Shown in pieces: positions 3,199 to 31,644 of a DNA stretch of 64,000 nucleotides (position 1 is its first letter; the number at the start of each line of letters is the position of its first letter). Location of the stretch: positions 1 through 64,000 of the forward strand of contig JAQWQB010000141.1 of NCBI GenBank assembly GCA_029245065.1. Direction: 5' to 3'. The notes beneath the pieces were generated by a model. That model made no database searches. It was not told where the DNA came from and saw only the letters and a program-made list of their open reading frames with translations. The position numbers and the translations under genes are program-made. Source of the DNA: Flavobacteriales bacterium. GTDB taxonomy: Bacteria > Bacteroidota > Bacteroidia > Flavobacteriales_D > Sanyastnellaceae.

Positions 3199-6100
3199 TT
3201 AGATACAAGATGATCCGAATGCACCTAGGAACTGAAGAAGGTCAGTTGCGTTGATCAGACCGTCACCGTTCAAGTCCTCAGGACATGGGTTAGCCGTATC
3301 AAACAGACAAGAACCATCATCAATAGATGCTCCAGCTAAAGGATCAAAGTTTGTAGCGTCTGGGTAAGTACATCCAATACAAGAAGCGTACTCACAAGCG
3401 TCACAATCAGCGATGTTTGCTGCAGGATCGAAGTTACAAGCGATTGGCTCAACACATCCTGTTATACAAGCACCAGCTCCAAGAGAGAAGGTGATTTCAC
3501 CAGCTCCTACAGGAGAACCTCCAGAAACGATTCCTTCGTTTGTTCCGAACAAGTTCCAAGAAACTTCACCTGTGAAGCCACCTGCAACAAGTACGATGTA
3601 GTAACATCCATCAGCAAGACAAAGAACGTCAGTACCAGTCGAAAGACCGTCACCTTCTTGTGCTCCGTCAAGATCACCACTAGCTACCAATACGTCATCA
3701 ATCGTGTAGATTTCGTAAAGGTTACCGTTCCATCCGTCACCGAATGAATCAGCCATCTGAACTGTCAAGCAGTTCTCGAAGCAGCAAGATCCGTCTTCAA
3801 TAGTTGCTGTAGCATCGAAGTTACAAGCACCAGCGTCAGTACAACCTGCACAAGTAACGAATTCACAAGAACCGTCTTCATCAGTTGCAGCTGGATCGGA
3901 GTTACAAGCAGTAGCGTCAGTACAACCACAAACAGCAGCTCCAATTGTGAAAGACACAGAGAAGTCACCGATAGCGTTACCACCAGCTGGAGTTCCTTCA
4001 GCAGCAAGAACGTTTCCTAGTTCGTCAACGATGTCGATAGCAGTTTCGAATGCGAATGTAGATCCAGCAACAGTTACTGTATAACATCCATCCTGAAGAC
4101 ATAGTAGATCGAATCCAGACTCAGCACCAGCAAAGTTATCTTCATCTACGAAGAACAATGCATTATCAATTGTGTTAGAAGCGATTACTGTTCCTAGACC
4201 ATCAGTGATAGTGTAAGTACCGTCATCCCATCCGTCACCGAATGAATCATACATGTTAACCTGAACAGGAGTACCTGGTCCACCAGCACAAGTATCAGAG
4301 AAGAAGTCACAAGTACCATCCTCGATGTTTGCAGCTGGATCATAGTTGTAAGCAACTGGGTTAGTACATCCTTCAACAACAACCTCACAAGCGATATCCA
4401 TCACGAATGAACCGTTATCGTCAGTCAATGGATCACCATCAACGTCTTCAGCACCAATGTAGATGTAGTAAGTAGAAACACCGTCACCGACGAATGATAC
4501 AGATACGTCATCTTGATCGAAGAAACCACAAGAACCGAAGTCAGCAGCTTCTGAAGCGAATGTTCCGTCTACTTGATCAACACAAGCAAATGGTCCAGCA
4601 CAATCAGCAGCAGTCCAAACATTGATTTTAGAATCAATTACAGAACCACAAGTAGAGATTGTTACAAGATCAGTTGTTGCAGGCAACGTGTACCATACAC
4701 CAGCTCCTGGAGCAGCGTCACAAGGAAGAAGTGTTGGAGCACCAGTTGCAGTAGAAGCACCTGTTGAACCTACAGTTGAAGAGTTACAAGCTACAGCAAT
4801 CGCACCAGCACACTCATCGTTAGCAGGAGCAGTAGTGTAAAGACAAGTACCATCATCAAGTGTAGCAGTAGCATCATAGTTATCTGCAACAACGTCAGTA
4901 CATCCTAGGAACTCACAGTCAACTGTGAAATCGAAGTCACCACATCCAGCAGGATCAGTAGTGAATACTGAGAAGTAGTAATCAGTGTTAGGAACCAATA
5001 CCAATAAGTCAGAGATGTCACCAGCACACTGGCCAGTTACAAGACAACCTACTTCATCAACAAGTGTACCACAAGCACCAGTGTAAACCATCAAACCAAC
5101 TTCAGAACCAGAGATGTTGTTCAATTCGAAGTTGAATGTATCACAAGTACCAGAGTTGAATGTGTAGAATACATCGTAAGCGGTGTTGAAACCAGCTACG
5201 AAGTTAGGCGCGTCAGAAGGAGAAGCACAACAAAGTGAACCTGTTGCAGCAACACCGTCAAGCATTGGAAGGGCAGCAGCACAATCATCGTTAGCTGGCG
5301 CACCCGTTCCTGGACATGGCTGACAAAGAACATCTAGTGTGAAATCAATACCAGCTCCAGCTCCAAATTCAGAAACAAGGATGAAGTAGTTGTTACCAGT
5401 CTGTGTGTTGAATGCAATCTCAGAAAGAAATCCACAAGCGTCATCGTTAGATCCTACACAAACAAGGTTTGTACAATCAGGAGCTCCAACATAAACGTGG
5501 ATCTTCGTGTCACCACCAGCAGAGTTACAAGTTCCAACGATTACCTGCTCATCAGCAGCAGCGTTGAATTCGTACCATACACCTGGAGAAGATACATCAG
5601 CACCACCACATACAGATCCAATTAGACCTTCGTTGTCAGTAGCAGCAATTGTAGTTCCAGGGATAGAAACTCCACAAGTAATAGGCTCAGCATCACAAAC
5701 GTCGTTGTTTGCTGGAGGACAGATACAAGATCCATCATCAATAGTAGCAGAAGGGTTGTATCCAGCACAAGCAGGATCAATACATCCTTCGATGTCACAT
5801 CCACCAGTGAATCCAAAATCAACTTCAATCGTTCCAGGAGCACCTGAACCGTAATCGTTACCTAGAGCATCAGATAGAGACCATCCGACTTCACCTGGGA
5901 ATGTTCCGTCAGTTACTTGGAAGATATAACATCCAGGAGCAACACATGCAGAAGCAGTACCAACAGTAAAACCGTCTCCTACAGGAGCAGTATCAAGATC
6001 TCCAGAAGCAACTAGACCTCCAAGATCATCAATGATGTTCCATGTAGCACCGTTCCATCCGTCACCGAAAGCATCAGTCATATCAATAAGAGCAAGGATT

Positions 6101-7254
6101 TCACCACCAAGGCAGTTCACACAAGAACCATCATCGATAGTTGCCAATGGATCAAAGTTTGAAGCCAATGGATCAGTACATCCAGCGCATGAAACGAAAT
6201 CACAACCGAAATCAAAATCAGCTAGTGGATCGAAGTTACAAGCCAATGGATCTGTACATCCAGGTGTACATCCAGCACCAATCTGAAGAAGTTCAGAACC
6301 TACAGTCGCGGCATCTCCGCTAGTTGCTGTATCAAGATCACCAGTGATAATTACACCACCAGCATCAGAGAACGTGTATGTTGCACCGTTCCATCCGTCA
6401 CCGAAACTATCAGTCATGTCATACGTGTAACATCCATCAGTAAGACAAAGCTCGAATGTACCAGCTCCACCTGCAGCAACAAGAGCTCCAAGGTCATCTA
6501 TAATTGTCCAACCGATTTCTCCGTCGAACGTTCCACCACCAACTGTATAAGTGATACAGTTATCGAAGCAGCAAGAACCATCATTAGCAGTTACAAGTGC
6601 AGAGAAGTTACAAGCAGCTGGATCATCACATCCAACGCAAGAAAAATCGCACGACCCATCATCCAAAGTTGCTGCACTATCGAAGTTACAAGCACCTGGA
6701 TCTGTACAACCTGCGCATGAGAGGAATTCACATGTCCCGTCATCAACGGTCGCAGATGGATCGAAGTTACAAGCGATAGGGTTTGTGCAACCACCAGCAA
6801 CTGCAGCACAGGCCAATGTCATTTCATATGCACCTTCACCTGCACCGAATCCTCCTACTACTACATAGTAGTCTGTACCAAGAGCAGAAGTGAATTCTAC
6901 CTGAGACTGAAGTCCACCGAAATCGTCATTACCTGTTACACAGGTGTAAGCACCACAAGCTCCAGTGTAAATATAGAGTTTTGTGTCATAATTTGTTCCC
7001 GGGTTTACCGTAGAAACTGTAATTAGGTCACCTGTTCCTGCGAACTGGTACCAGTGAGCTCCACCGGTTCCAATTGTTGTTACACAAGTAGGTCCATCGT
7101 TTACTGAAGCTCCAGTTGTTAGGCCAATTACTGCATCGCCACAAGCGATTGGTAACGCATTGACACACCCGTCCTGAGCGTTCAGATTGCTTGTCCATAG
7201 TGCCATCATGGCTACAAATAGGACTGAAGCAACTTTCGTAAAAGTTTTCATCAT
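3199..7254 (-). CDS. Giant secreted protein with twelve Cys-rich DDGSC repeats, GDGWNG modules and a dockerin-like C-terminus
   Basis: This 1351-residue protein has a signal peptide ending near LWTSNLNAQ. It contains about twelve copies of a roughly 20-residue repeat (GCTDPxACNFDPxATxDDGSC), in which paired Cys residues suggest disulfide-bonded and probably cation-binding loops. Four (M)xDSFGDGWNG-type modules alternate with the repeats, as do several PPC-like domains (for example residues 27-150, with YIYTGACG and GNDDFGG). It ends with DLNGDGLINATDLLQFLGAF and a final SSC, a dockerin/EF-hand-like segment, instead of a recognisable T9SS type A or B domain. Extracellular location is inferred from the signal peptide and Cys content. 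The ligand is unknown. It probably shares an ancestor with the 1-3122 gene. Confidence 0.88.
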   Translation of the reverse strand: MMKTFTKVASVLFVAMMALWTSNLNAQDGCVNALPIACGDAVIGLTTGASVNDGPTCVTTIGTGGAHWYQFAGTGDLITVSTVNPGTNYDTKLYIYTGACGAYTCVTGNDDFGGLQSQVEFTSALGTDYYVVVGGFGAGEGAYEMTLACAAVAGGCTNPIACNFDPSATVDDGTCEFLSCAGCTDPGACNFDSAATLDDGSCDFSCVGCDDPAACNFSALVTANDGSCCFDNCITYTVGGGTFDGEIGWTIIDDLGALVAAGGAGTFELCLTDGCYTYDMTDSFGDGWNGATYTFSDAGGVIITGDLDTATSGDAATVGSELLQIGAGCTPGCTDPLACNFDPLADFDFGCDFVSCAGCTDPLASNFDPLATIDDGSCVNCLGGEILALIDMTDAFGDGWNGATWNIIDDLGGLVASGDLDTAPVGDGFTVGTASACVAPGCYIFQVTDGTFPGEVGWSLSDALGNDYGSGAPGTIEVDFGFTGGCDIEGCIDPACAGYNPSATIDDGSCICPPANNDVCDAEPITCGVSIPGTTIAATDNEGLIGSVCGGADVSSPGVWYEFNAAADEQVIVGTCNSAGGDTKIHVYVGAPDCTNLVCVGSNDDACGFLSEIAFNTQTGNNYFILVSEFGAGAGIDFTLDVLCQPCPGTGAPANDDCAAALPMLDGVAATGSLCCASPSDAPNFVAGFNTAYDVFYTFNSGTCDTFNFELNNISGSEVGLMVYTGACGTLVDEVGCLVTGQCAGDISDLLVLVPNTDYYFSVFTTDPAGCGDFDFTVDCEFLGCTDVVADNYDATATLDDGTCLYTTAPANDECAGAIAVACNSSTVGSTGASTATGAPTLLPCDAAPGAGVWYTLPATTDLVTISTCGSVIDSKINVWTAADCAGPFACVDQVDGTFASEAADFGSCGFFDQDDVSVSFVGDGVSTYYIYIGAEDVDGDPLTDDNGSFVMDIACEVVVEGCTNPVAYNYDPAANIEDGTCDFFSDTCAGGPGTPVQVNMYDSFGDGWDDGTYTITDGLGTVIASNTIDNALFFVDEDNFAGAESGFDLLCLQDGCYTVTVAGSTFAFETAIDIVDELGNVLAAEGTPAGGNAIGDFSVSFTIGAAVCGCTDATACNSDPAATDEDGSCEFVTCAGCTDAGACNFDATATIEDGSCCFENCLTVQMADSFGDGWNGNLYEIYTIDDVLVASGDLDGAQEGDGLSTGTDVLCLADGCYYIVLVAGGFTGEVSWNLFGTNEGIVSGGSPVGAGEITFSLGAGACITGCVEPIACNFDPAANIADCDACEYASCIGCTYPDATNFDPLAGASIDDGSCLFDTANPCPEDLNGDGLINATDLLQFLGAFGSSCI

Positions 7255-7593: not shown

Positions 7594-10557
7594 GTGCTTA
7601 TCTATCATTATTTGCCGTTGGTCGAACGAACATTCATATCGCCTTTCATCCATTCCCCCGCACCTTGCAGGTTGATTTGGTCTGTGATTTTGCTTTTTGC
7701 ACTATTTCAAAGCAATCAATCATTTTCTCAAATCAGTATAAATGAAGTGTGCGCATCGAACAGCGACACCTACTTCGACGAGTATGGTGAAGCAGACGAC
7801 TTGATAGAACTTCATAACACAAGCGATACAACCATTGATCTATCCAACTGGCGAATCGGTAAAAACGAATCGTTTGAAGAAAGCTACCCTCTCCCACCCG
7901 CAGAAGACCTAATACTCGAACCAAACGCCTTTGTAATACTATGGGCTGACAACCAAAGTACACAAGGCCCTTCTCACCTACCCTTCCAACTAAACAATGA
8001 AGGAGACTTTTTGACACTATATAACGACGTAGGCGAAATTATCGACCAACCATACATTCCTCTCCACCATGTCAACAACTCATGGGGAAGAACATCAGAC
8101 AACGAATGGCGAAACTTCGTCACCCCCACCCCACTGGAAGAGAACAACACAGCATCGTTCGATGGAACATTGACACCTCCAATCTTCAACTTCCCTTCTG
8201 GCCTGTACCCCGCGGCAATTGAATTAATCCTATCACACCAGAATACAGATGCACTCCTCCATTACACCCTGGATGGCAGCTCACCCTCTACGGATGACAA
8301 CCTCTTTGACGCCTCCTTGTTGGTTGAAACAAACACCATTATACGGGCAGCGGCTTTCGCACCGAATTTCATCCCAAGCAAGCCCGCCGCTTTCCATTGC
8401 TTACCCGAAGCAACAAACAGCACCCCCATTATTAGCATCACTGCAGACTTCTATGAACTTTTCGGTTTCTTCGGAATCATCAACCAATGGGATAGTCAAG
8501 AAGAGATAGCAGCTTCTTTCAGCTACATCGTTAATGGGAATGCACCGTTTGAAGAAGCCTGCGGATTGGAACTTCACGCACCCGCCCCGCTCGAACAGCA
8601 TGGATTTCGACTTTCAGCCAAATCCATTTACGACAACCCAACATTTGATTATCCTTTCTTCGGTGAAAACCAACCTGCTACGTTCGACCGACTCATCCTT
8701 CGAAATGGCGGAGATGACGCCTTCGAATTAGGAGGGACTTTTTTACGTGATCAAATCATACACGCTGCCTTCGATGAAATTCGCCCGGAACACAGCCACT
8801 CCGCCTCCAAATTGGTTTCAACCTACCTCAATGGTGAATATTGGGGAGTACATCATTTACGAGAACGAATAGATAGCGCTCACATTTCTCATCACTTTGG
8901 ACAGCACGACGTCGACCTTCTTGAAAGATCTGCTCAGTTCTTCGCCACCAGAAATAGCTTGAGCGGCACATGGGAAGACTACGACCTACTTGAAGAGTCT
9001 GTTGTTTCTCTTGATTTGGCTCAAACGGAAAATTTCGAAATGATTTCATCGTGGATGGACCTATCCAATTTCACTGATTACCAATTGCTACAGATTTTCA
9101 TTTCGAACCAAGACTGGTTAAGCAACAACATGAAGTTTTGGAGACCAATTGATGAGTCTGAACCATGGAAATGGGTTCTATGGGACACCGACTGGGGGCT
9201 TGGCATGTGGGGAGAAACATTCCCCGTTGGATCTCCTGACTGGAACGCGCTAGAATTTGCACTCTCTGACTGGGGTGGATGGCTCGAGGATGAAGTGGAA
9301 ACTGAACTTTTACAGAACCTCGTTGAAAATGACACATTCTTGCATGACTTCGTTTCACGCGCAGCAGATCTTCGGAACTCCTCTTTCGAAACGTACCGAT
9401 GGAACGAACGAATAGACAGCGCCCTTGTTGAGTTAAGCGATGTGACAGACGAACATTTTGCCCGGTGGAATATTGATGAATTAGTCTGGGGCGAAGAAGT
9501 TGACACGCTGCGGTCATTCATCACTGAACGTCCAGGAATTTTCTTGGAGCATTTCACACAGCAATTTGAACTCGGCGAAATCAACACCCTAGCACTCAAC
9601 ACTTTCCCGGAGGGTATTGGCGGATTCGAAGTGAACTCCCTTTCCCTTGATAGCTCGGAATGGGCAGGCGACTACTTTGAATTTGTTCCGGTTCGAATCA
9701 AGGCACTTCCTCCGATTGGCTACAATTTTGTAGGCTGGTCAGACGACATGACAATGGAGACCGAACGGATGATTGACCTCTCTTCTGACAGCTCCATTAC
9801 CGTATTATACGAACTCGCAACCATTAATAATGCAGTTCAAATCAACGAAATCATGTACGCTTCTACTGCCAGTGAAGCATGGATTGAACTCAAGAACCTA
9901 AGCCCTGAAAACATTGACCTATTTGGCTTTTCATTGGGTATCGACGAAGAACTTATGGTGTTTACCGACAGCATAACAATTCTTCCGAATGCGTATTTCA
10001 TTGTTTGTGAGAACACCTCATTATTCGACATTGCATATCCCTCATTTACAGGTCAACGTTATGAAATGACCTCACTTGATTTGCCCAACGACCCAACAAC
10101 CCTTCGCCTTATTAATCCATTAAACACATTGATTGACAGCGTTAGGTACACACAGTCTTCGCCCTGGCCATACCAAGCAAACGGCTCGGGAGGTTCAGCA
10201 GAATTCAACGAAGCGGAGACAGAAAATTCTTTGGGAATCAATTGGCATTGTCAGAGCACGGAAGAAGGTACACCAGGAGAACAAAACTCACTTCCGGCTT
10301 CGATCAATGCACCACAAGAATCATCAATTTCCATTGCCCCAAACCCTTTCCAAGATCAACTAATGATTCAACTACCTGTGTTTTATGGTCCTTGCACAAT
10401 TAACATTTACAACATTCAAGGGCAGTTGGTACATTCTGAAATTTCGGGGCAGCATTCGCACCAACAGCTGATACTTTCACATCTGGAGACCGGATGTTAC
10501 ACGTTAACCGTTTCGAACGGCAACGATTCATTTCAACATCTTGTTATAAAGCGATGA
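7594..10557 (+). CDS. CotH-kinase-like surface protein with lamin-tail domains and T9SS type A sorting domain
   Basis: Domain order in this 987-residue reading: hydrophobic signal segment (about 28-46); lamin-tail domain (about 47-160, opening SINEVCASN); chitobiase C-terminal-like segment (about 200-268, HYTLDGSSPS); CotH-like protein kinase core (about 330-575, with NQDWLSNNMKFWR and WKWVLWDTDWGLG near 525); InlB-like repeat (about 672-735); second lamin-tail domain (about 747-850); T9SS type A domain (about 905-987, starting IAPNPFQDQL). CotH proteins are atypical secreted kinases; the substrate here is unknown. The start is uncertain: GTG at 7594 leaves 26 residues before the signal segment and there is no ATG, so TTG at 7672 may be the true start. 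Its stop abuts the stop of the convergent gene at 10558. Confidence 0.85.
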   Translation: MLIYHYLPLVERTFISPFIHSPAPCRLIWSVILLFALFQSNQSFSQISINEVCASNSDTYFDEYGEADDLIELHNTSDTTIDLSNWRIGKNESFEESYPLPPAEDLILEPNAFVILWADNQSTQGPSHLPFQLNNEGDFLTLYNDVGEIIDQPYIPLHHVNNSWGRTSDNEWRNFVTPTPLEENNTASFDGTLTPPIFNFPSGLYPAAIELILSHQNTDALLHYTLDGSSPSTDDNLFDASLLVETNTIIRAAAFAPNFIPSKPAAFHCLPEATNSTPIISITADFYELFGFFGIINQWDSQEEIAASFSYIVNGNAPFEEACGLELHAPAPLEQHGFRLSAKSIYDNPTFDYPFFGENQPATFDRLILRNGGDDAFELGGTFLRDQIIHAAFDEIRPEHSHSASKLVSTYLNGEYWGVHHLRERIDSAHISHHFGQHDVDLLERSAQFFATRNSLSGTWEDYDLLEESVVSLDLAQTENFEMISSWMDLSNFTDYQLLQIFISNQDWLSNNMKFWRPIDESEPWKWVLWDTDWGLGMWGETFPVGSPDWNALEFALSDWGGWLEDEVETELLQNLVENDTFLHDFVSRAADLRNSSFETYRWNERIDSALVELSDVTDEHFARWNIDELVWGEEVDTLRSFITERPGIFLEHFTQQFELGEINTLALNTFPEGIGGFEVNSLSLDSSEWAGDYFEFVPVRIKALPPIGYNFVGWSDDMTMETERMIDLSSDSSITVLYELATINNAVQINEIMYASTASEAWIELKNLSPENIDLFGFSLGIDEELMVFTDSITILPNAYFIVCENTSLFDIAYPSFTGQRYEMTSLDLPNDPTTLRLINPLNTLIDSVRYTQSSPWPYQANGSGGSAEFNEAETENSLGINWHCQSTEEGTPGEQNSLPASINAPQESSISIAPNPFQDQLMIQLPVFYGPCTINIYNIQGQLVHSEISGQHSHQQLILSHLETGCYTLTVSNGNDSFQHLVIKR

Positions 10558-11034
10558 TTACCACATGTCGGCATGCCAGCTTTCAGAAAATGGCACCTTC
10601 CATGATGCCTTGAGCTCTCCAACGTTTTTAGCCAACGTATTGAACACCGCGGTAGCATCGGAGATAATATTCGCTTTTCGCTTCGCCCAGAAATCATGCA
10701 TTTGATCTTCGACCAATTCACCTTCATTCTCCCAGACGATGAGCGTGCGGTTGAAAAAATCCACCTCCATTTCATCTCCTAACTTTTGGATCAAGTGAAC
10801 AGAACTATCAATGGAACATCCAGTTGCTTCTTGTGCATTTTCATCTACACCTAGAATCAACCATCTATTACTGCGCACTTCATAAGCAGCAGACAATTCT
10901 TTCCCATGGGCCTGCCATTGATTAACAAAAGGGGTCATCACCGCGTCTATCTTGCTCAGGTGTTCGCGAGTTAACGGCTTATTCGATTGGTATACCCAAA
11001 TTCGGGCATGATCGGGTAGTGAGTTCAAATTCAT
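10558..11034 (-). CDS. Conserved Bacteroidota protein of unknown function
   Basis: This 158-residue soluble protein matches a family I recognise as widespread in Bacteroidota: it opens with LPDHARIWVYQSNKPLT, followed by the motifs QWQAHGKEL and ATGCSIDSSVHLIQ. Databases often label such proteins 'ABC transporter ATPase', but no Walker A, Walker B or ABC signature motif is visible, so that name is unsupported. The conserved Cys in GCSIDSS could be functional. It is the last gene of the XrtF operon, 20 bases after the XrtF-associated gene, but such genes are also found elsewhere, so a role in sorting is not implied. Stop codons of this and the CotH gene are adjacent. Confidence 0.75.
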   Translation of the reverse strand: MNLNSLPDHARIWVYQSNKPLTREHLSKIDAVMTPFVNQWQAHGKELSAAYEVRSNRWLILGVDENAQEATGCSIDSSVHLIQKLGDEMEVDFFNRTLIVWENEGELVEDQMHDFWAKRKANIISDATAVFNTLAKNVGELKASWKVPFSESWHADMW

Positions 11035-11054
11035 AACGCGAAGGTAAGGAGGAA

Positions 11055-11570
11055 TTAGATGCGGGACCGCAATCTTCCGACTACAAAAAGCACCAGGGCT
11101 GGCATCGGGCTTTGCATGAATCCAAGCACCTTTCGCGCGATGTTATATCCAGGTTCAGGCATGGAAATCAGCTTCCCACCGACTAAGAAGAACCCGGCTA
11201 GGACGAAGCAAATGGCCATCATCCACAGGAGTAACTTGGTGAAAAACGCATCGTCGAAGGCCCACTTGAGGAAGAGGAAGTTGAGCAAGACATTTAGTAC
11301 AATGAACACAACTGCCAAGCCCCACTTGAGCGTTGTTAATTGCGATCTTGAAAAAGAATGCAATGATTCAATGGGATCGTGGCTATAGTAATAATTGAAG
11401 GGAGCATCTATTCGCTTCACATCCAGCCATGCTTTTCTTTCCTCCGGAGACCAGTCATAGAAAGCAGGTTCTGAAGCCGTTTGTTCGAGGTAAAAATTCA
11501 CGTTCACCTTCACCATTTCTTGGGCGAAACCAAGCAGCAGCATGAGCGGAAGTAAGAGCCAGTGTTTCAC
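11055..11570 (-). CDS. Exosortase F system-associated membrane protein
   Basis: A 171-residue membrane protein: an N-terminal hydrophobic helix (about 3-16), a polar extracytoplasmic segment (about 17-80, with FYDWSPEERKAW), then three further hydrophobic helices. Size, topology and position directly after xrtF match the family known as the exosortase F system-associated protein of flavobacteria. Its biochemical role is not established; a partner or accessory subunit of the exosortase is inferred. The start overlaps the xrtF stop by 4 bases (ATGA), suggesting translational coupling. Confidence 0.8.
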   Translation of the reverse strand: MKHWLLLPLMLLLGFAQEMVKVNVNFYLEQTASEPAFYDWSPEERKAWLDVKRIDAPFNYYYSHDPIESLHSFSRSQLTTLKWGLAVVFIVLNVLLNFLFLKWAFDDAFFTKLLLWMMAICFVLAGFFLVGGKLISMPEPGYNIARKVLGFMQSPMPALVLFVVGRLRSRI

Positions 11571-12118
11571 GAAGCAGGTGTTTTAGCAGGCTTCGTTTTT
11601 TGGACTGAAAATTTTTGAACCCAGATGTACCATAGCAAAAACACGAAGGCATATACGATGACCGTAAATGTATAATCGTGGTTGAAGTCGAGCAGGTCAG
11701 GACGGTAATTGACAATAGTAGCAAGAGCAACTACTCGCAGTACATTAATGTAATGAATGGCGACAACGCCTAACGGCATGAACCAAGCCTTGTGTTTCCA
11801 TGGTCCTGGGTAGGCCAACACGAAGATGGAAAAAAGGGCGAACAGTATAATACCGTCACAGGGTGCTCCAATGGTTACTCCGGGAGAGCTGGCAATTCCG
11901 ACATGATTTCTCCAGGTTCCATCATCGAACACCCGAAGTTCGTACCCTAAAATTTCAAGTATTGACTCAGTGCCTTTTACAATTTGATCTACTACCCATT
12001 CGTCTAACGAAGAATGTGGTCGAAGCACAAATTCATACAGAACGTACCAGCCCAAGTAGGCCAAGGCACCAATAATTAGAAAGCTCAGTAAAGGATTATC
12101 CTTGAGCTTCGAAATCAT
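11567..12118 (-). CDS. xrtF: Exosortase family protein XrtF
   Basis: A 183-residue multi-pass membrane protein with the exosortase/archaeosortase catalytic triad visible: Cys87 in GAPCDGI, Arg129 in INVLRV and His148 in FNHDYTF. Exosortases are membrane cysteine proteases/transpeptidases that cut C-terminal sorting signals (PEP-CTERM and relatives) of exported proteins. The length and downstream neighbour fit the flavobacterial XrtF type. The gene overlaps the upstream PID-CTERM-like substrate gene and the downstream associated-protein gene by 4 bases each. The operon is divergent from the polysaccharide locus, as is common for exosortases, which tend to co-occur with exopolysaccharide genes. 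Confidence 0.9.
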   Translation of the reverse strand: MISKLKDNPLLSFLIIGALAYLGWYVLYEFVLRPHSSLDEWVVDQIVKGTESILEILGYELRVFDDGTWRNHVGIASSPGVTIGAPCDGIILFALFSIFVLAYPGPWKHKAWFMPLGVVAIHYINVLRVVALATIVNYRPDLLDFNHDYTFTVIVYAFVFLLWYIWVQKFSVQKTKPAKTPAS

Positions 12119-12336
12119 TCTTCTTTCTTGATTCGGTCGTATGCTTTCTTTCCGCCAAGAGCAATCCCAGCAGCAATCAAGAAGCTTGCACCTCCATCAA
12201 TAGGGCAAACTGGCCCAAATGGTCCGTCACATGGTGTACCACCACTATCTGGGAAGGGAGCATCTTGTCCGAATGCAATCATTGGAAGCACCATCACAGT
12301 GATAAGCGCAACTCTAGCAATCCACTTTCTTAACAT
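12115..12336 (-). CDS. Small PID-CTERM-like sorting substrate of XrtF
   Basis: Starting at ATG 12336 this is a 73-residue protein: signal peptide (about 1-24, ending IAFGQ), a short Pro/Gly/Cys-rich segment with two Cys (residues 36 and 44), then a tripartite C-terminal signal. The signal consists of the motif PIDGG (about 45-49), a hydrophobic helix (SFLIAAGIALGG) and a basic tail (KKAYDRIKKEE). This is the layout of a PEP-CTERM-class sorting signal, here of the PID-CTERM type, and it is encoded directly upstream of xrtF. An ATG at 12360 would add eight residues but overlaps the promoter box at 12358-12365, so 12336 is preferred. The mature part is only about 20 residues, so it may act as a small surface peptide; function unknown. 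Confidence 0.8.
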   Translation of the reverse strand: MLRKWIARVALITVMVLPMIAFGQDAPFPDSGGTPCDGPFGPVCPIDGGASFLIAAGIALGGKKAYDRIKKEE

Positions 12337-12357
12337 GATTAAGGTATTCAGTTTAAG

Positions 12358-12365
12358 CAAAAGTA
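12358..12365 (-). promoter_or_regulatory. Bacteroidota -7 promoter box for the xrtF operon
   Basis: TACTTTTG on the minus strand matches the TAnnTTTG consensus. It lies 21 bases before the preferred ATG at 12336. No clear -33 TTTG was seen. Confidence 0.55.
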
Positions 12366-12425
12366 CGAATTTAACTTTAGGGTTGAATCATTTCCCATAA
12401 ATGGACTTCTAAAGCTCTGCATTGT

Positions 12426-12433
12426 TATATTTG
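12426..12433 (+). promoter_or_regulatory. Bacteroidota -7 promoter box for the polysaccharide locus
   Basis: TATATTTG matches TAnnTTTG and ends 17 bases before the ATG of the Wzc-type gene. This is the likely main promoter of the long plus-strand locus. The xrtF box lies only about 60 bases away on the other strand, so the two could share regulation. Confidence 0.6.
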
Positions 12434-12450
12434 TGCCGTAGACTCACTAT

Positions 12451-14913
12451 ATGGCGCAGAACAAAGCCTCCTTTATTGACCCCGAAGATCTTCGGCCGAT
12501 ATTCAAATTCGTCGGGAAGAACTGGCTAGCACTTATGTTGCTACCCGTGATTACCTTCGTTGTTGCGTACATTGTTACGTACCAAACGCCAGACATTTAT
12601 GCGGCGAAATCAGAGATTCTTCTTCGGTCTCAAGAGACGTATGATTACCAGTCTCAGATTTACAGCAACGTTGGTTATTACACCTTGCTTGCAGATGTCA
12701 CCAACCAACAACGCGTTCTTTCTTCGTACGATATCATTTCGAAATCGCTTACCAAACTTGATTACAACATCTCGTATTATTTGGTAGGTCGACTGAAAAC
12801 GGAGCAGCAAGACAATATTAGCGCGCTGGACATCACTTTTGCGAAAGATAAACTGGGAGAACCAGTTATTCATCCGAGCCTCTTGAATCAGCCCATCAAC
12901 GTAAAAGTGCTTGACCTAGATCGTTTCTCCATCAGCTACGAGCGGATGGGCGAACAAATCACCAAAGAGTACTTGTTTGGTCAACAGATTGAAGAGCCTG
13001 ATTTCACCATGGTCATTAATAAAACTGACCGGATTGACGAGGGCACCATTGAAAATAACAAGGACATCGGGTTCCAATTCCGTGTGCACAGTCATAAATA
13101 CTTGGTCAGCAAGTACAAACGTGCGCTAACCATTGAAAACATTGAATACACTTCCATCTTAAACCTTCAAGTTGAGAACGAAGTTCCCGAGCGTGCCAAG
13201 CGATTCTTGGATACGTTGAGCACCGTTTACATCGACTATACGCAACAGACGCGGATTGACGTCAACGAAAACACGCAACGCTACATTGACAAGCAACTTG
13301 ATGAGCTCGAGTACATTTTGGACTCGTTGGAATACATGCTTCAGTCTTTCCGCGATTCGAACCGCATCCTGGATTTAAGTAAGGAACAAGAAGAGTACTT
13401 TAAAAGCATGGTTGAATTCGATGCTCAAAAAAGAAGACTCGAATTGCAGTTGGAATCCATGAGTACCATGGAAGAGTTCCTTTTACAGAAAGCCAACAAC
13501 GAAGCATTGCCACCGTCGTTCTTCATGTTTGAAGAGGACTACATTCTCCAAGATCAGATCAGCGAGCTTTCTAGCTTGAAGAGAGAACGGATTGTAAAGA
13601 TGCTCAACTACACCGAAGAGAATGGGGAAATCTTGAAATTGGATTCCATCATCAACACGGTGAAGCAGGGGATCTACAAATACACTGTTGATACAAAGGC
13701 CGCCATTCTGAGTAAAATTCGCGACATCAACGCACAAATTGCTCGACTGGAATACAAGTTGAAGCAAATTCCGAAGTCGCAGCGTGATATCTTGGGAATC
13801 GATCGTAAGCTCAAAGTAAACGAGAACCTTTACATCTTCTTGCTAGAGAAGAAGGCCAACACAGTAATCGCTCGTGCTGCGATACTTCCAGAAGCTTCTT
13901 TGGTCGAAGAATCCAGAAACTTAGGGGTCGTCGGGCCGAACAAGCAAAAAACCATTTACCTCGCTGTGGGTATTGGACTAGCGATAGCGGTGGTCATTGG
14001 ATTGATTCGAACTATATTCTTTGAACGAATCGAGAACATCAGAGAAATGAAGTCCATTTCGAAGCTGCCAATTATCGGTGGAATTCCGAACTACACGGAA
14101 ATCAACACCGACCCAATTGCCATTGCTTCAGCACCTCGAAGCAATGTCGCCGAGGCCTTTCGATCCATACGAACCAACCTTCAGTACTTATTACAAGCTG
14201 AAGGGCCAAAGGTTATTTTGGTAACATCCTTGCACCCGGGGGAAGGAAAAACATTTACTTCGTCCAACCTGGCTTCTGTGTTAGCGAAAGCTGGTAAGAA
14301 AGTTATGTTGCTCGATTTCGACATGCACAAGCCGAAGATTCACAAGACCTTTGGGCTTGAAAATGTGGCGGGTGTTTCTACCTACCTGATTGGCAGAACA
14401 GACATTGGTGCGTGTAAGATTCAAACGCAAGTTGAAAACTTAGAAGTGATGACGGCCGGACCCGTTCCACCCAACGCTTCCGAGTTGGTAGTTAGTGAGC
14501 GTGTAAACATGCTTCTTGATGAATTAAAAGCCTCCCATGACTTTATCGTCGTGGATACTCCTCCACTGATGCTCATTAGTGATTCACTTGTACTCATGAA
14601 CCATGTGGACACAGGAATCTACGTGATGAACACCGAAAAAGCATCTAAACAAGGTATCCGTTACTTGGAAGATGTGCTTGGTCAGAATAACCTGACAAAC
14701 GTTTCAGTACTGCTGAATAACATCAAGCAGAAAAAATGGAAGTATTATTACGGTAAATACGCATACCGCTATGGATATGGCTATGGTTACGACTATGGCT
14801 ATGGATATGGTTACGGAAGCGAGCCTAACGCAAAAGGAAAGGCGAAAGCGAAGGACTTGAGAGCTGGATACGGTGCAGAAAACGAAAATCGGAAGCAACG
14901 TAAAAAGCGCTAA
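12451..14913 (+). CDS. Wzc-type polysaccharide co-polymerase with BY-kinase domain
   Basis: This 820-residue inner-membrane protein controls polymerisation and export of surface polysaccharide. It has an N-terminal Wzz-type membrane helix (about 30-50), a long periplasmic coiled-coil region, a second helix (about 503-525) and a cytoplasmic bacterial tyrosine kinase domain. In that domain are Walker A (HPGEGKT, about 595), Walker A' (LLDFDMHK, about 620) and Walker B (FIVVDTPP, about 698). The C-terminus is a tyrosine cluster (about 766-787, with eight Tyr-Gly or Tyr-Asp pairs), the usual autophosphorylation site, followed by a very basic tail. It is the first gene of the locus. No Wza-type outer-membrane exporter lies beside it in this window. 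Confidence 0.92.
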   Translation: MAQNKASFIDPEDLRPIFKFVGKNWLALMLLPVITFVVAYIVTYQTPDIYAAKSEILLRSQETYDYQSQIYSNVGYYTLLADVTNQQRVLSSYDIISKSLTKLDYNISYYLVGRLKTEQQDNISALDITFAKDKLGEPVIHPSLLNQPINVKVLDLDRFSISYERMGEQITKEYLFGQQIEEPDFTMVINKTDRIDEGTIENNKDIGFQFRVHSHKYLVSKYKRALTIENIEYTSILNLQVENEVPERAKRFLDTLSTVYIDYTQQTRIDVNENTQRYIDKQLDELEYILDSLEYMLQSFRDSNRILDLSKEQEEYFKSMVEFDAQKRRLELQLESMSTMEEFLLQKANNEALPPSFFMFEEDYILQDQISELSSLKRERIVKMLNYTEENGEILKLDSIINTVKQGIYKYTVDTKAAILSKIRDINAQIARLEYKLKQIPKSQRDILGIDRKLKVNENLYIFLLEKKANTVIARAAILPEASLVEESRNLGVVGPNKQKTIYLAVGIGLAIAVVIGLIRTIFFERIENIREMKSISKLPIIGGIPNYTEINTDPIAIASAPRSNVAEAFRSIRTNLQYLLQAEGPKVILVTSLHPGEGKTFTSSNLASVLAKAGKKVMLLDFDMHKPKIHKTFGLENVAGVSTYLIGRTDIGACKIQTQVENLEVMTAGPVPPNASELVVSERVNMLLDELKASHDFIVVDTPPLMLISDSLVLMNHVDTGIYVMNTEKASKQGIRYLEDVLGQNNLTNVSVLLNNIKQKKWKYYYGKYAYRYGYGYGYDYGYGYGYGSEPNAKGKAKAKDLRAGYGAENENRKQRKKR
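14770..14817 (+). repeat. Hexanucleotide repeat encoding the Tyr-Gly tail of the Wzc kinase
   Basis: Eight consecutive in-frame copies of TAY-GRN encode YG, YG, YG, YD, then four more YG pairs. The near-identical hexamers could change copy number by slippage in steps of two residues, altering the number of phosphorylatable tyrosines without a frameshift. Confidence 0.85.
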
Positions 14914-15604: not shown

Positions 15605-16137
15605 ATTCTTTCATCAAGGGAACATCTATTTACTTGAGAGCCATTAGTTTGGCTGATGCGTCTGAAGATTATCTGCAGTGGATCAATGATGCTGAGACAA
15701 CCAAAGGCCTCGTTACAGGCACCTTCCCCTCAACAATGGAAGACCTTAAGTCATACCTTACGCACGTTTCGACAGACAGTAAAACCATCATGTTTGCCAT
15801 TTGTCAGAACGACGGGGATCGACATGTAGGCAACATCAAGTTGGATAATTTCGACTGGGTCTCGAGAACCGCTGAATTGGGAATTCTACTTGGTGCGAAA
15901 GACACTTGGGGACAAGGAATTGGAACCGAGTCGTGCCAACTTCTACTTAGCTATGCATTCGAAGAGTTGAACTTGCGAAAAGTGAGTTTAACCGTTTATG
16001 ACAACAACCCAGGAGCGATTCGGCTCTATGAAAAAATAGGTTTCCAAACTGAAGGCAGGTTACGCAAACACATCTTCGCAAATGACGTCTACATCGACAA
16101 ACTTTGGATGGGAATTTTTAAAGAGGAGCTGAAATGA
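15601..16137 (+). CDS. GNAT-family N-acetyltransferase (sugar acylation, PseH/SpsD-like role)
   Basis: A 178-residue GNAT protein of the RimJ type: N-terminal IYLRAISLADA, acetyl-CoA-binding region WGQGIGTE and the late motif NPGAIRLYEKIGF. In nonulosonate and spore-coat sugar clusters (pseudaminic acid PseH, Bacillus SpsD) such enzymes acetylate an amino group on the sugar precursor. Its place directly before a cytidylyltransferase, an aminotransferase and a NeuB-type synthase supports that role here. Translational coupling by ATGA overlaps on both sides. Confidence 0.82.
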   Translation: MNSFIKGTSIYLRAISLADASEDYLQWINDAETTKGLVTGTFPSTMEDLKSYLTHVSTDSKTIMFAICQNDGDRHVGNIKLDNFDWVSRTAELGILLGAKDTWGQGIGTESCQLLLSYAFEELNLRKVSLTVYDNNPGAIRLYEKIGFQTEGRLRKHIFANDVYIDKLWMGIFKEELK

Positions 16138-16889
16138 AATTAGTCATCGTTCAAGCAAGAATGGGCTCAACAAGATTGCCCGGGAAGGTATTGCAAACCA
16201 TTGGCGAACGTACCATATTAGGACATTTACTACACCGTCTTTCACCCTCAACCAAAGTTGATCAATTCATTGTTGCCACTACAGAGAACACAGAAGATGA
16301 CGCCATAGAAAAATGGTGTTCAACGAACAACGTAGCTTGTTTTAGAGGAAGCGATTGGGATGTATTAGAACGTTTTTGGGGCGCCGCGAACAGCTGCAAT
16401 GAAGCACCTGATACCATTGTTCGTATTTGTTGCGACAACCCTCTCCATTCCTACAAAGTATTGGACTTCGTAGTTGCTGAATTTGAAGCCGCAGGTACTG
16501 ATTATTTTTCAAATTCGAACCAAGAACCAGACTACTTGGAAGACGGGTTTGACGTAGAAGTATTTACGTACAACGCTTTGAAAGAAGCAAGGGAAAAAGC
16601 GCGCCTCATGAGTGAGCGTGAACATGTTTGTCCCTACATCAAAAAGCACTTCACTTGCGCTTGGAAAAAAGCGGATCCGAATTATATGTTCAAACTTTCT
16701 GTGGACACCCCTGCAGATTTAAACATCGTAGCTCGTATTTTCGAAGAATTGAAAGCGCATGAGGATTTCAGTATTGAAGAAGTCACTGCTTTGCTGAAAA
16801 GCAAGCCTGAAATCCTCGAATTGAATAAGGAAAGTAAAATCAATAGCGGCTTTAAGAAGTCGCTGGATGAAGATAGAATTGTAAAATGA
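16134..16889 (+). CDS. SpsF-type cytidylyltransferase
   Basis: A 251-residue nucleotidyltransferase starting VIVQARMGSTRLPGKVLQ, the signature of the SpsF branch of acylneuraminate cytidylyltransferases. Further motifs are VRICCDNPLH and SVDTPADLNI. It likely activates a nonulosonic-type acid with CTP to the CMP-sugar. It is a different branch from the NeuA-type enzyme at 28488, so the locus probably activates two acidic sugars. It overlaps both neighbours by 4 bases in a set with a GNAT, class III aminotransferase, SDR and NeuB. Confidence 0.85.
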   Translation: MKLVIVQARMGSTRLPGKVLQTIGERTILGHLLHRLSPSTKVDQFIVATTENTEDDAIEKWCSTNNVACFRGSDWDVLERFWGAANSCNEAPDTIVRICCDNPLHSYKVLDFVVAEFEAAGTDYFSNSNQEPDYLEDGFDVEVFTYNALKEAREKARLMSEREHVCPYIKKHFTCAWKKADPNYMFKLSVDTPADLNIVARIFEELKAHEDFSIEEVTALLKSKPEILELNKESKINSGFKKSLDEDRIVK

Positions 16890-18229: not shown

Positions 18230-19053
18230 TGGAACCGAAAAGAACTACCGACCCCACCACCATCAATTTTCGTGAGAAATTCGAGTTGAAGGGCAAGGTC
18301 ATTGTAATCACTGGAGCATGTGGACTTGTTGGCCGCGCTTTTTGCGAAGCTGCTGCACAGTTCGGCGCTCATGTAGTAGCTGTGGACATCCCCCAAGCTG
18401 ACCCGGCTGCTTTCGCCAAGGAATTGGAAGAGAGACATGACAACAAAATGCTCGGTGTTGCCCTGGATGTTGCTTCGAAAGAAGATGTTTCTGCGCTTCT
18501 AGCAAGCACGCTAGACCGCTTTGGCACCATTGATGGCCTCGTGAATGGTCACCAAAACAAAAGCCACCTCATCTTCGAGCCGTTTGAAGACGTTTCTGAA
18601 GACAACTGGGATACCGTGGTGAATATTAACCTAAAAGGTACTTTTCTTACTTGCCAAGTACTGGGAAGCTGGATGGCAAATAACGGCGGTGGAAGTATTA
18701 TTAATATTCCTTCAACCTACAGTGTTGTTGCTCCAAACCAAAATCTTTACAAAGGAACAAGTCTTGGTTGTCCGGCAGCATACAGCGCTTCCAAAGGTGG
18801 AATTGACGCGCTTTCACGTTACTTAGCCTCGTATTGGGCTACAAAAAAAGTACGCGTAAATATGATTACACCACATGGGGTGTGGAACAACCATGAAAAA
18901 CAATTCGAAGACAACTTCGCACGCTTCTCCCCTATGGAACGATTGAGTTACAATCATGAAGTTGCGAGTGCAATGATCTATTTGCTCTCTGACGCATCTA
19001 GCTACGTTACAGGCGACAACATGCTTGTGGAAGGTGGTTGGACCGTATGGTGA
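18229..19053 (+). CDS. Short-chain dehydrogenase/reductase (SDR)
   Basis: A 274-residue classical SDR: the cofactor motif TGACGLVG near residue 30, catalytic Ser in INIPSTYS and the YSASK pair (Tyr185, Lys189). It ends with the usual GDNMLVEGGWTVW. It probably oxidises a hydroxyl to a ketone, or reduces a ketone, on a sugar intermediate, providing or using the substrate of the adjacent aminotransferase. It is not an extended SDR of the PseB/LegB dehydratase type; none of those is encoded nearby. Confidence 0.85.
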   Translation: MEPKRTTDPTTINFREKFELKGKVIVITGACGLVGRAFCEAAAQFGAHVVAVDIPQADPAAFAKELEERHDNKMLGVALDVASKEDVSALLASTLDRFGTIDGLVNGHQNKSHLIFEPFEDVSEDNWDTVVNINLKGTFLTCQVLGSWMANNGGGSIINIPSTYSVVAPNQNLYKGTSLGCPAAYSASKGGIDALSRYLASYWATKKVRVNMITPHGVWNNHEKQFEDNFARFSPMERLSYNHEVASAMIYLLSDASSYVTGDNMLVEGGWTVW

Positions 19054-20117
19054 AAATTGAACACATGAAACTAACAGACTTTTTAGATAATTATGACCCA
19101 CGCGTGCTTACGAGACCGTATGTCATTGCTGAGGCTGGGGTGAACCACGAAGGCTCAATGGATCTTGCAAAAAGACTTATTGACGAAGCCGCGGAAGGTG
19201 GGGCTCACGCCATTAAATTTCAAACGTACAAGGCCGAAACCATTGCGTCAAAAGACTCTCCTTATTACTGGGATATTACCAAAGAGTCTACCCGCAGTCA
19301 GTTCGAACTTTTCAAGAAGTACGACAAATTCTGGAAGGGCGAATACGAGGAACTTGCGAAGTACTGCGAAACGGCAGGAATTGAGTTCATGAGCACTCCG
19401 TTCGATGTGGAATCAGCAAATTTCTTGAATGAAATGATGCCTGTGTTCAAAATATCCTCTTCGGATTTAACGAACCTACCGTTCATTGAGCACATGTGCA
19501 AGTTTGGAAAACCAATGATTCTATCTACTGGTGCTGCCTACCTATGGGAGGTTCAACAGGCGGTTGAAGTCATTGAAAAGCATGGTAACCAACTCTGTTT
19601 GATGCACTGTGTATTGAACTACCCTACTGAAGATCAGAATGCTCATTTGGGCATGATTAAAGACTTGATTCGTCAATTCCCAGACCATGTTCCCGGCTAC
19701 AGTGATCACACGCTACCAAAAGACATGGAAGTCATGAAAATGGCCACCCTTCTTGGAGCTGCAGTCATTGAGAAGCATTTTTCTCACGACAAAACCTTGC
19801 CTGGAAACGACCATTACCACGCCATGGACAAGGAAGACATGAAGCACTTCAACTCGGTAATGGACAAAACATTTGAGCTACTCGGGTCATTCAAGCTTTC
19901 GGCACTACCTAGTGAAGAAAAATCGCGTCAAAATGCGCGTAGAAGCCTTGTTGCAGCACGACAAATCCCAGCTGGAAAAGCCATTGAAAGAGAAGACTTG
20001 ACATGGAAGAGACCAGCCAAAGGAATTAGTCCGAAAGAAATTGAAGTGGTGCTTGGCAAGAAAGCTACACGTACCATCGAAGAAGATGAAATCTTGATGT
20101 GGAATGCCCTCGACTGA
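19047..20117 (+). CDS. neuB: NeuB/SpsE-type nonulosonic acid synthase with SAF domain
   Basis: About 356 residues. The TIM-barrel opens with YVIAEAGVNHEGSMDLA and includes IKFQTYKAE, MSTPFD, ILSTGA, GYSDHT and IEKHFSHDK, all typical of NeuB. The C-terminal SAF (antifreeze-like) domain covers about 295-356. The enzyme condenses phosphoenolpyruvate with an amino-hexose or similar to give a nonulosonic (sialic-like) acid. ATG 19047 overlaps the SDR stop; ATG 19065 is an alternative. The longer reading from TTG 19038 is unlikely. The DUF4910 gene begins 14 bases before its stop. Confidence 0.9.
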   Translation: MVKIEHMKLTDFLDNYDPRVLTRPYVIAEAGVNHEGSMDLAKRLIDEAAEGGAHAIKFQTYKAETIASKDSPYYWDITKESTRSQFELFKKYDKFWKGEYEELAKYCETAGIEFMSTPFDVESANFLNEMMPVFKISSSDLTNLPFIEHMCKFGKPMILSTGAAYLWEVQQAVEVIEKHGNQLCLMHCVLNYPTEDQNAHLGMIKDLIRQFPDHVPGYSDHTLPKDMEVMKMATLLGAAVIEKHFSHDKTLPGNDHYHAMDKEDMKHFNSVMDKTFELLGSFKLSALPSEEKSRQNARRSLVAARQIPAGKAIEREDLTWKRPAKGISPKEIEVVLGKKATRTIEEDEILMWNALD

Positions 20118-27399: not shown

Positions 27400-28491
27400 A
27401 TGAAGCCCTTACATCTCAAAACATTTCTATCCGACGAAGGATTCGGTCACATTGTGCGACAGCGCGCCATTATAGAGGCATTACGCCAACACGTCCCAGA
27501 ACTGTCAATCTTGTTGCAGACAGGCAAGCACATTGATGCTGCGGGCAGACTGATCAAAGGAATAGAAACTACACGCAAATACAACAACATTACCTGGCAC
27601 AAACAGCCCAACGGCTCTCCAGATGTTGACCTGATAAAAATTGAATACGCCCAATACCTCAAAAGATCTGAAGACTTCGTAGAGCAAGAGATGCAGGAAT
27701 GGGGCGACTTCGACTTTGTCATTTCAGACTTTGTTTACGAAGCATTCCCATTGGCGAAAAAACGAGGCGTCCCTTCTTTTGGGGTAGCTCACTTTACCTG
27801 GGATTGGTTCTTCTCAAAACTGTATCCACCGCCCCTTAAAACGGAGGTCATTTACCGCTTCTTTGAGATGGCGAAAATGGCAGATGCTTTGTACTTCCCT
27901 CCTTTCACCCCTGAAGAAATACTTCGTTATTACAAAGTGAATGCCATGGAAGTGCCCTTAATTCTGCGCTCGGAAATCAATCACAAAGATTCTGGGTCCC
28001 ATGATAAATTTAAGATCATGATCATGGATTCAGGTGCAGGAGTGCTTCGTCCTTCTATACTCAAGGCGCTGGACTCTGTTCGTGAGATGGACGATGTACA
28101 ATTCTTCGTCTCATCGAGCATGGAACGAGAGCAAGAGAACATTTCGTTCATAGATAAGAACGAACTTATGGTGGATTACATCAACGAAATGGACTTGGTG
28201 ATTGGGCGAGCTGGTTTCAATACCATTAGCGAATGCATTGGGCTTCGTACCCCGATGCTCCTGATTGGAGAGGCCATGAACCCAGAGATGAATGAGAACA
28301 TCTTAAACCTGAAGAAAGTTGGTCTTGGAACCTTCATTAGCTTGGAAACATTCGAAAACGACCTTCGCCATTACCTCCCACTCTTTAGAAAACACGAATA
28401 CAAATTCATTGCACAAAACATGAAGGACCATGAAATGGCCGTGAACGGTGCTGAAGTAATTGCATTGGATATATTGAACAGAATAGGATGA
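27400..28491 (+). CDS. MurG/PseG-like GT-B protein (sugar-nucleotide hydrolase or glycosyltransferase)
   Basis: A 363-residue protein with an N-terminal half opening KTFLSDEGFGHIVRQRAI, which resembles the glycine-rich loop region of MurG/PseG. Its C-terminal half contains GRAGFNTISECI followed by P(M)LLIGEAMNPEMNEN, the UDP-binding signature of GT28-type proteins. In pseudaminic and legionaminic pathways a GT-B protein (PseG/LegG) removes UDP before the NeuB step. It overlaps the CMP-sugar synthetase gene by 4 bases, which supports a hydrolase role, but a true transferase is equally possible. Confidence 0.65.
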   Translation: MKPLHLKTFLSDEGFGHIVRQRAIIEALRQHVPELSILLQTGKHIDAAGRLIKGIETTRKYNNITWHKQPNGSPDVDLIKIEYAQYLKRSEDFVEQEMQEWGDFDFVISDFVYEAFPLAKKRGVPSFGVAHFTWDWFFSKLYPPPLKTEVIYRFFEMAKMADALYFPPFTPEEILRYYKVNAMEVPLILRSEINHKDSGSHDKFKIMIMDSGAGVLRPSILKALDSVREMDDVQFFVSSSMEREQENISFIDKNELMVDYINEMDLVIGRAGFNTISECIGLRTPMLLIGEAMNPEMNENILNLKKVGLGTFISLETFENDLRHYLPLFRKHEYKFIAQNMKDHEMAVNGAEVIALDILNRIG

Positions 28492-29072
28492 GGACAATTG
28501 CGATCATACCCGCAAGAGGCGGATCGAAACGGTTGAAAGGAAAGAACATCTATCCGTTGTTGGGCAAACCGCTTATGGCGTACACCATTGAGGCGCTTCA
28601 AGAATGTGACTTCATTGATGCGATTTATGTAAGCTCTGATGACGACGAAATTTTAGCCGTTGGTGAACAGTACGGTGCTATTTCGCTCAAACGCCCCGCA
28701 GCTCTTGCCGACGACAAAACGCCAAAGATCGTGGCCATTCGCCAAGCAGTTGAAGACCCTAAAGTGGCCGCAGATGGCGAGGTTGAGAACGTCATTGTAG
28801 CGCAGGCCAATTCCCCAGAACTGACAGCAGATCAATTCAAAAAAGGGTACGATTTAATGGTTCAACATCGTTTATGGGAAATCATGAGTGCAGACGAAAA
28901 TGGTGTTCAAAATGCAGCATTTCGAATTGTGAAACAACACGCACTTTACAACACGTTTCTCAGCGCGCACTGCGGGTTCGTTGTAGCGAATAACATTGAT
29001 GTGCATACCATTGAAGACATTCATTCCTTGGAACAAAATGATGCTTTTGTTCAATTACATTCATCAAAATAG
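28488..29072 (+). CDS. neuA: NeuA/PseF-type CMP-nonulosonate cytidylyltransferase
   Basis: A 194-residue protein with the canonical N-terminus IIPARGGSKRLKGKNIYPL (CTP-binding), the segment VSSDDDEILAVGEQYGA and the late motif IDVHTIEDIHSLE. It should form the CMP-activated form of an acidic nonulosonic sugar. It is shorter than typical NeuA (about 220-230), with a compact middle region. It is one of two CMP-sugar synthetases in the locus (the other, SpsF-type, is at 16134). Confidence 0.85.
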   Translation: MRTIAIIPARGGSKRLKGKNIYPLLGKPLMAYTIEALQECDFIDAIYVSSDDDEILAVGEQYGAISLKRPAALADDKTPKIVAIRQAVEDPKVAADGEVENVIVAQANSPELTADQFKKGYDLMVQHRLWEIMSADENGVQNAAFRIVKQHALYNTFLSAHCGFVVANNIDVHTIEDIHSLEQNDAFVQLHSSK

Positions 29073-30936: not shown

Positions 30937-31644
30937 ATGTTTATCATATCAGAAATTTCACCTCAGTTTAGCGGAGATATTGCTACCGCAGAACAAATGA
31001 TCATTCAATCCAAGCTTGGAGGAGCGGAAGCCGTTAAAGTACAGTTGTACGACCCGAAGCAGTTCAACAAGCCAGCAAGTCATGCTATGGAGTTCGAAGA
31101 ACTTAAGCATTTACGTGATTTTGCTGACCACCATGGGATTGCCTTATTCGCCACTCCATTCGCCCCTTCTTTTCTTGATTGGTGTGTGAAACTAGACTTG
31201 AAGTACATGAAAGTGGCAGCGCGTATGCATGTCGGTTTTCCTGAACTTACAAGAGATATCATGAGCTTGAAAAAGCCAACTTTCGTTTCTATTCCTGCAG
31301 ATATGGCGAAGGAAGACCAGGAGAAAATTGAAGTGGTTGATTACGCTACTTACCTCTACTGCGTGGTGAAGTACCCAACACTCGTGGAAGAGTTCGAAAT
31401 GCCCGATTTCAACAATTCTCGTTTTAATGGCGTCTCTGACCACACGCTTGGCAATGCGGCGGCTTTGTTTGCTTCTGCCCATGGCGCAACCTACCTCGAA
31501 AAGCACTTCACGCTGCGTAACTCATTTCAGCGAAGCGGCGAATTGGCTCACTTGTGTTCAATGACACAAGAAGACCTTGCCATGATTAAGAACACTGCAA
31601 CTGAATTTGAGACCTTACGCAAGGTCACAGGAATGAATGGCTAA
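30937..31644 (+). CDS. neuB: Short NeuB-like synthase lacking the SAF domain
   Basis: A 235-residue TIM-barrel protein: it has KVQLYDP, LFATPFAP, NGVSDHTLG and YLEKHFTLRN, all NeuB landmarks. The normal opening AExGxNHNG is altered to SEISPQFSGDI, and the polypeptide ends after the barrel without the C-terminal SAF domain that closes the active site in NeuB dimers. It may use a smaller or different acceptor, or act in a complex. The neighbours are AsnB-like (upstream) and a putative transferase (8-base overlap downstream). Confidence 0.78.
   Translation: MFIISEISPQFSGDIATAEQMIIQSKLGGAEAVKVQLYDPKQFNKPASHAMEFEELKHLRDFADHHGIALFATPFAPSFLDWCVKLDLKYMKVAARMHVGFPELTRDIMSLKKPTFVSIPADMAKEDQEKIEVVDYATYLYCVVKYPTLVEEFEMPDFNNSRFNGVSDHTLGNAAALFASAHGATYLEKHFTLRNSFQRSGELAHLCSMTQEDLAMIKNTATEFETLRKVTGMNG

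Follow-up and report, generated by a model that had tools for sequence, protein, structure and literature searches.

A probable dedicated XrtX/PID-CTERM operon with a 73-residue predicted substrate beside a Wzc-type polysaccharide cluster in a Flavobacteriales genome

Sorting systems that recognize a C-terminal signal differ in how many proteins they serve. In the XrtA/PEP-CTERM (EpsH) system, as at the locus we examined, an exosortase is encoded by a polysaccharide cluster and its targets carry a three-part C-terminal signal, but a species that encodes any PEP-CTERM protein often encodes twenty or more of them (PMC3237569), whereas the genome studied here contains one target. The rhombosortase/GlyGly-CTERM system includes genomes with a single target that is encoded beside the enzyme (PMC3237569), and our locus shares this arrangement, although rhombosortase is an unrelated rhomboid serine protease that recognizes a different tail motif. 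XrtF (TIGR04128) of Flavobacterium johnsoniae is an exosortase related to ours, with an adjacent membrane partner in both cases, and that species requires both xrtF and the partner gene to form biofilms and colonize surfaces (PMC10936215). The closest described system is XrtX/PID-CTERM (NF046080, NF046081, and NF046082), which is already catalogued in NCBIfam as a widespread system.

Here, we describe an XrtX/PID-CTERM locus within a 64,000-nucleotide stretch of Flavobacteriales DNA, which we refer to in its entirety as the window. The exosortase and the substrate tail pass the cut-offs of their respective models, the partner protein is a relative, and the gene order matches that of most related loci. 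The window differs from the catalogued system in that its partner protein falls below the cut-off, its paired cysteines are separated by 7 residues rather than the usual 4, no giant type IX secretion system (T9SS) gene is adjacent, and the operon ends in a gene for a 158-residue protein. Our literature search, outside of which most subscription journals fell, returned no publication on PID-CTERM, CWPPPC, or PIDGG and none on XrtX as an exosortase, with the matches to XrtX concerning unrelated things. Within the literature searched, the cysteine pair and the linkage to a giant T9SS protein that we report below seem not to have been described before. We consider it probable that the locus is a dedicated XrtX/PID-CTERM operon in which XrtX cuts, and possibly transfers, a small peptide that serves the polysaccharide coat.

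Layout of the operon and its surroundings

The operon consists of four genes on the minus strand (10558-12336 in the window's ORF list). The PID-CTERM substrate gene comes first (12115-12336, 73 aa, with its ATG at 12336), followed by xrtX (11567-12118, 183 aa), the partner membrane protein gene, which has a GTG start (11055-11570, 171 aa), and a fourth gene (10558-11034, 158 aa), which encodes a cytosolic protein of unknown function. The substrate gene and xrtX overlap by the 4 bp ATGA (12115-12118), xrtX and the partner gene overlap by the 4 bp GTGA (11567-11570), and the fourth gene starts 20 bp past the partner gene's stop. These reading frames and the 4-base overlaps joining the first three were as the initial annotation had described them; its coordinates also took in the 158-aa gene, although its text left that gene unmentioned.

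The 158-aa protein belongs to no Pfam or NCBIfam family. Within the window's family (L006, L007, L008, L011, L106, and L113), its gene comes directly after that of the partner protein, and the protein itself is present in 329 of the 395 genomes of the class that made up our sample, far more than hold XrtX. We therefore rejected it as a part of the XrtX system and regard the gene as a probable passenger of the operon.

The downstream end of the operon is abutted by a convergent plus-strand gene (7594-10557) for a T9SS-secreted protein with CotH and lamin-tail domains (PF08757, PF00932, and TIGR04183). Farther downstream, on the operon's own strand, the ORF list contains a large secreted protein of 1351 aa (3199-7254) that has no NCBIfam match, and a large protein is also encoded on this side of the operon in L006, L007, L008, and L011.

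On the upstream side, a 114-bp intergenic region (12337-12450) separates the operon from a divergent, plus-strand gene for a Wzc-type polysaccharide co-polymerase/tyrosine autokinase (12451-14913), which scores 174 bits against TIGR01007 (cut-off, 108) and heads a polysaccharide cluster. The sequence TAnnTTTG is the -7 element of Bacteroidota promoters, and two such boxes stand back to back in this region, TATATTTG on the plus strand (12426-12433) and TACTTTTG on the minus strand (12358-12365), where 0.05 would be expected by chance per 114 bp. They lie 61 bases apart, in agreement with an earlier description of the operon as divergent from wzc with promoter boxes about 60 bases apart. A clear -33 element was not seen in the intergenic region.

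The genes after wzc encode a glycosyltransferase, a cytidylyltransferase, an aminotransferase, a NeuB-type synthase, and a flippase-like protein. Two NeuB/PseI-like synthase genes (19038-20117 and 30937-31644), together with separate cytidylyltransferases (16134-16889 and 28488-29072), suggest that the cluster may make two nonulosonic-acid-type sugars. The cluster also includes an asparagine-synthase-like gene (29085-30911), whose second-best match is the XrtA/PEP-CTERM amidotransferase model, below that model's cut-off.

The 73-residue PID-CTERM protein

The predicted substrate is built of a putative signal peptide, a short mature region, a PIDGG motif (residues 45-49), a hydrophobic helix, and a basic tail. 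Its tail scores 38.4 bits against the PID_CTERM model NF046080 (cut-off, 26), and the motif, hydrophobic stretch, and basic end that had been recognized by inspection are present. After a basic-hydrophobic start, a putative signal-peptidase site, judged by eye, falls between AFG and QDAPF. The mature region, QDAPFPDSGGTPCDGPFGPVC, would span 21 residues before the PID motif and include both C36 and C44, close to the earlier estimate of about 20 residues with two cysteines. Between the close relatives L006 and L106, the substrate gene has a dN of 0.05 versus a dS of 0.91 (most other pairs are saturated); these rates indicate that the gene is under purifying selection and thus that the small ORF is real.

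The match to NF046080 begins at residue 45 (profile position 2), that is, at the motif, so the cysteine pair lies essentially outside the model. Of 71 distinct PID proteins, 58 have a pair, which we define as two cysteines within the 18 residues before the motif; the cysteines of a pair are separated by 3-7 residues. The commonest form is CWPPPC plus one residue followed by P-I/V-D-G-G, and in the 58 proteins with a pair, Pro makes up 39% and Gly 24% of those 18 residues. The window's substrate reads CDGPFGPVC-PIDGG and has the longer cysteine spacing of its own family. Proteins lacking the pair (13/71) belong largely, as read from the lists, to multi-PID genomes or to genomes without a strong XrtX. 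When 28 homologous precursors were aligned, C36, P39, C44, P45, D47, G48, G49, K63, and K64 were invariant.

One alternative is that the small protein is never cut and works as a small subunit in the membrane, or as a regulator, of XrtX or Wzc, with the PID tail serving as its membrane anchor. The protein is tiny, it is encoded with the enzyme, its mature part is too small to fold into a domain, and in the 28-precursor alignment its tail is as conserved as the remainder, all of which would suit such a role. However, the tail combines a motif, a helix, and a basic end, as do the signals recognized by sortases, exosortases, and rhombosortases (PMC3237569), and some genomes encode two to five PID proteins in which little beyond the tail is shared. 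We consider an uncut subunit unlikely. A second alternative is that XrtX matures a diffusible signal or an antibacterial peptide, and the product would indeed be short (about 21-24 residues), cysteine-paired, rich in Pro and Gly, and derived from what looks like a precursor. We find this very improbable, as the CWPPPC core is constant across many families, unlike fast-changing peptide toxins and pheromones, there is usually one PID copy per genome, and the neighbors are Wzc and surface-protein genes, with no immunity-like gene noticed among them.

XrtX, its partner, and their association with PID tails

The exosortase had been named XrtF in the initial annotation, a name that we reject on the basis of both profile scores and the co-occurrence of PID tails. 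The enzyme scores 199.2 bits against the XrtX model NF046081 (NCBIfam cut-off, 170), and it falls short of the XrtF model TIGR04128 at 87.2 bits (NCBIfam cut-off, 90); no protein in the window's genome matched TIGR04128 at an E value of 1e-24. The score against XrtF is barely below its cut-off, and XrtF and XrtX are related families such that many XrtX proteins pass the XrtF cut-off too. Yet of the 12 genomes that match XrtF most strongly (>200 bits), just 5 show a PID tail even when the threshold is loose, compared to 115 of 123 strong-XrtX genomes; strong XrtF genomes thus mostly lack PID tails, which favors XrtX as the enzyme cognate to the tail and makes it hardly credible that the system is an XrtF system.

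The enzyme has the Cys/Arg/His triad of exosortases, and C87, R128, and H147 are each identical in 48 of 48 homologues. Cys87 had been numbered correctly at the outset, while the residues given as Arg129 and His148 were off by one. Structure models of XrtX (pLDDT, 93.6) and its partner (pLDDT, 90.1) had no match in a fold search of the PDB at an E value of <0.001 and thus gave no functional lead. A sequence search of solved structures with XrtX likewise found no match, and the solved-structure searches yielded no exosortase-like structure.

The partner protein scores 55.4 bits against NF046082, the XrtX-associated membrane protein model (cut-off, 75), but it aligns with the partner proteins of other XrtX loci and holds the same position, so we regard it as a relative of that family rather than a formal member. 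Its gene directly follows xrtX in most relatives, and G14, K82, and Y142 are invariant in an alignment of 30 partner proteins.

A search of the window's genome found this XrtX to be its sole exosortase, and a whole-genome profile search for further PID-CTERM tails, as had been proposed, found a single tail above the cut-off, with the next match at 11.7 bits. Across the 395 genomes of the class, a PID tail was present in nearly all of the 123 genomes with a strong XrtX (E value up to 1e-40), with exactly one tail in 100 of the 123; the association has a Fisher p value of ~7e-40, which is not corrected for kinship among the genomes, and the pattern extends over many families. In the other 8 strong-XrtX genomes, any PID tail was below the threshold used, and 18 of the 395 genomes had a PID tail without a recognized XrtX-like gene. 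Positions were listed for 65 loci, and at 49 of these the PID gene is the immediate upstream neighbor of xrtX, in the same orientation. Absence of the substrate gene beside the exosortase in close relatives would have weakened the case for a dedicated pair, but adjacency is kept in all six close relatives whose loci were readable, those named above as the window's family. That XrtX sorts many proteins in the window's genome, the tiny one being merely the most recognizable, is exceedingly improbable given that one tail exceeds the cut-off and the runner-up reaches just 11.7 bits, although some other genomes do have 2-5 PID tails.

With one enzyme and one tail in the genome, class-wide co-occurrence, and adjacency, the proposal of a dedicated exosortase/substrate pair is supported, and the window's system is a dedicated sorting system as Haft and Varghese (2011) use the term (PMC3237569). 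The operon had also been called self-contained, and this part of the description goes too far, since the PID gene usually has ties to a giant T9SS protein and to Wzc as well, ties that the window's family shows only in part.

Neighboring genes and a possible role for the peptide

We surveyed the neighborhood at 49 loci. Wzc was encoded within the stretch at 35 of them and was divergent from xrtX in 34 of these 35. At 22 of the 49 loci, the PID gene lies 0-80 bp behind the gene for a giant secreted protein of ~880 to 2350 aa (a contig end truncates one of them to 675 aa); a T9SS type A tail is present in 21 of the 22 giant proteins and a G8 domain in eight. The link between the giant gene and the PID gene is kept even where the PID gene lies away from xrtX (L088, L089, L096, L099, L104, and L111), and we used this as a prediction on a second sample of twenty stretches, chosen mainly for PID genes away from xrtX or for extra copies. 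A giant-protein homologue was immediately upstream of the PID gene in 11 of the 19 recognized cases, one more PID gene lay behind a shorter T9SS protein, and the others had no such neighbor. Since these cases are related by descent, the linkage is conserved synteny, and each case is not independent evidence.

No giant T9SS gene lies upstream of the PID gene in the window or in the six close relatives, so a giant partner is not general. The large proteins encoded downstream in the window were considered for this part and rejected, as they had no match to the body profile of the relatives' giant proteins; partial similarities to the giant family occur elsewhere in the window's genome. T9SS type A tails are common in that genome (132 matches across 3.19 Mb), which gives it a large repertoire of secreted proteins. 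Variations on the arrangement were also seen elsewhere. In two relatives (L129:4030-7295 and L130:1666-4988), the PID gene encodes a PINGG motif and sits immediately before wzc in the same orientation, with xrtX following. In L143, L144, L145, and L146, whose genomes have no strong XrtX match, the PID proteins lack the cysteine pair, yet their genes also follow one for a T9SS-tail or giant protein.

Under the exosortase model, the 73-residue precursor would be exported by Sec and lose its signal peptide, and the C-terminal helix would keep it in the inner membrane. XrtX, through C87, R128, and H147, would then act with its partner to cut at or beside PIDGG on the periplasmic side. The product would be a Pro/Gly-rich peptide of ~21-24 residues, either freed or passed to an acceptor, in which the two cysteines probably close a disulfide loop. 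Our literature search found no report of cleavage for any PID-CTERM protein, and recent work on a cyanobacterial exosortase also calls the outer-membrane crossing of exosortase substrates unclear (PMC12188702).

We infer that the peptide serves the coat made by the divergent Wzc cluster, given Wzc itself, the sugar genes that follow it, and the biofilm defect of F. johnsoniae xrtF mutants. Its most likely role would be that of a linker or assembly element joining the polysaccharide, or its export machine, to surface proteins, and in most relatives the obvious partner would be the giant T9SS-secreted protein whose gene immediately precedes the PID gene. A more specific version, in which XrtX, rather than sorting a protein, attaches a conserved Pro/Gly-rich mini-peptide with a CWPPPC-type loop to a polysaccharide or lipid acceptor and the peptide links the Wzc-dependent coat to the giant T9SS protein, is speculative, and we think it unlikely. 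If true, however, it would connect exosortase sorting with type IX secretion in Bacteroidota.

With one substrate of 73 residues, this operon is about the simplest system in which to follow exosortase cleavage and identify the acceptor. Beyond the window's own family, the link between the peptide gene and the giant T9SS gene suggests that two large surface-display systems of the Bacteroidota may meet.
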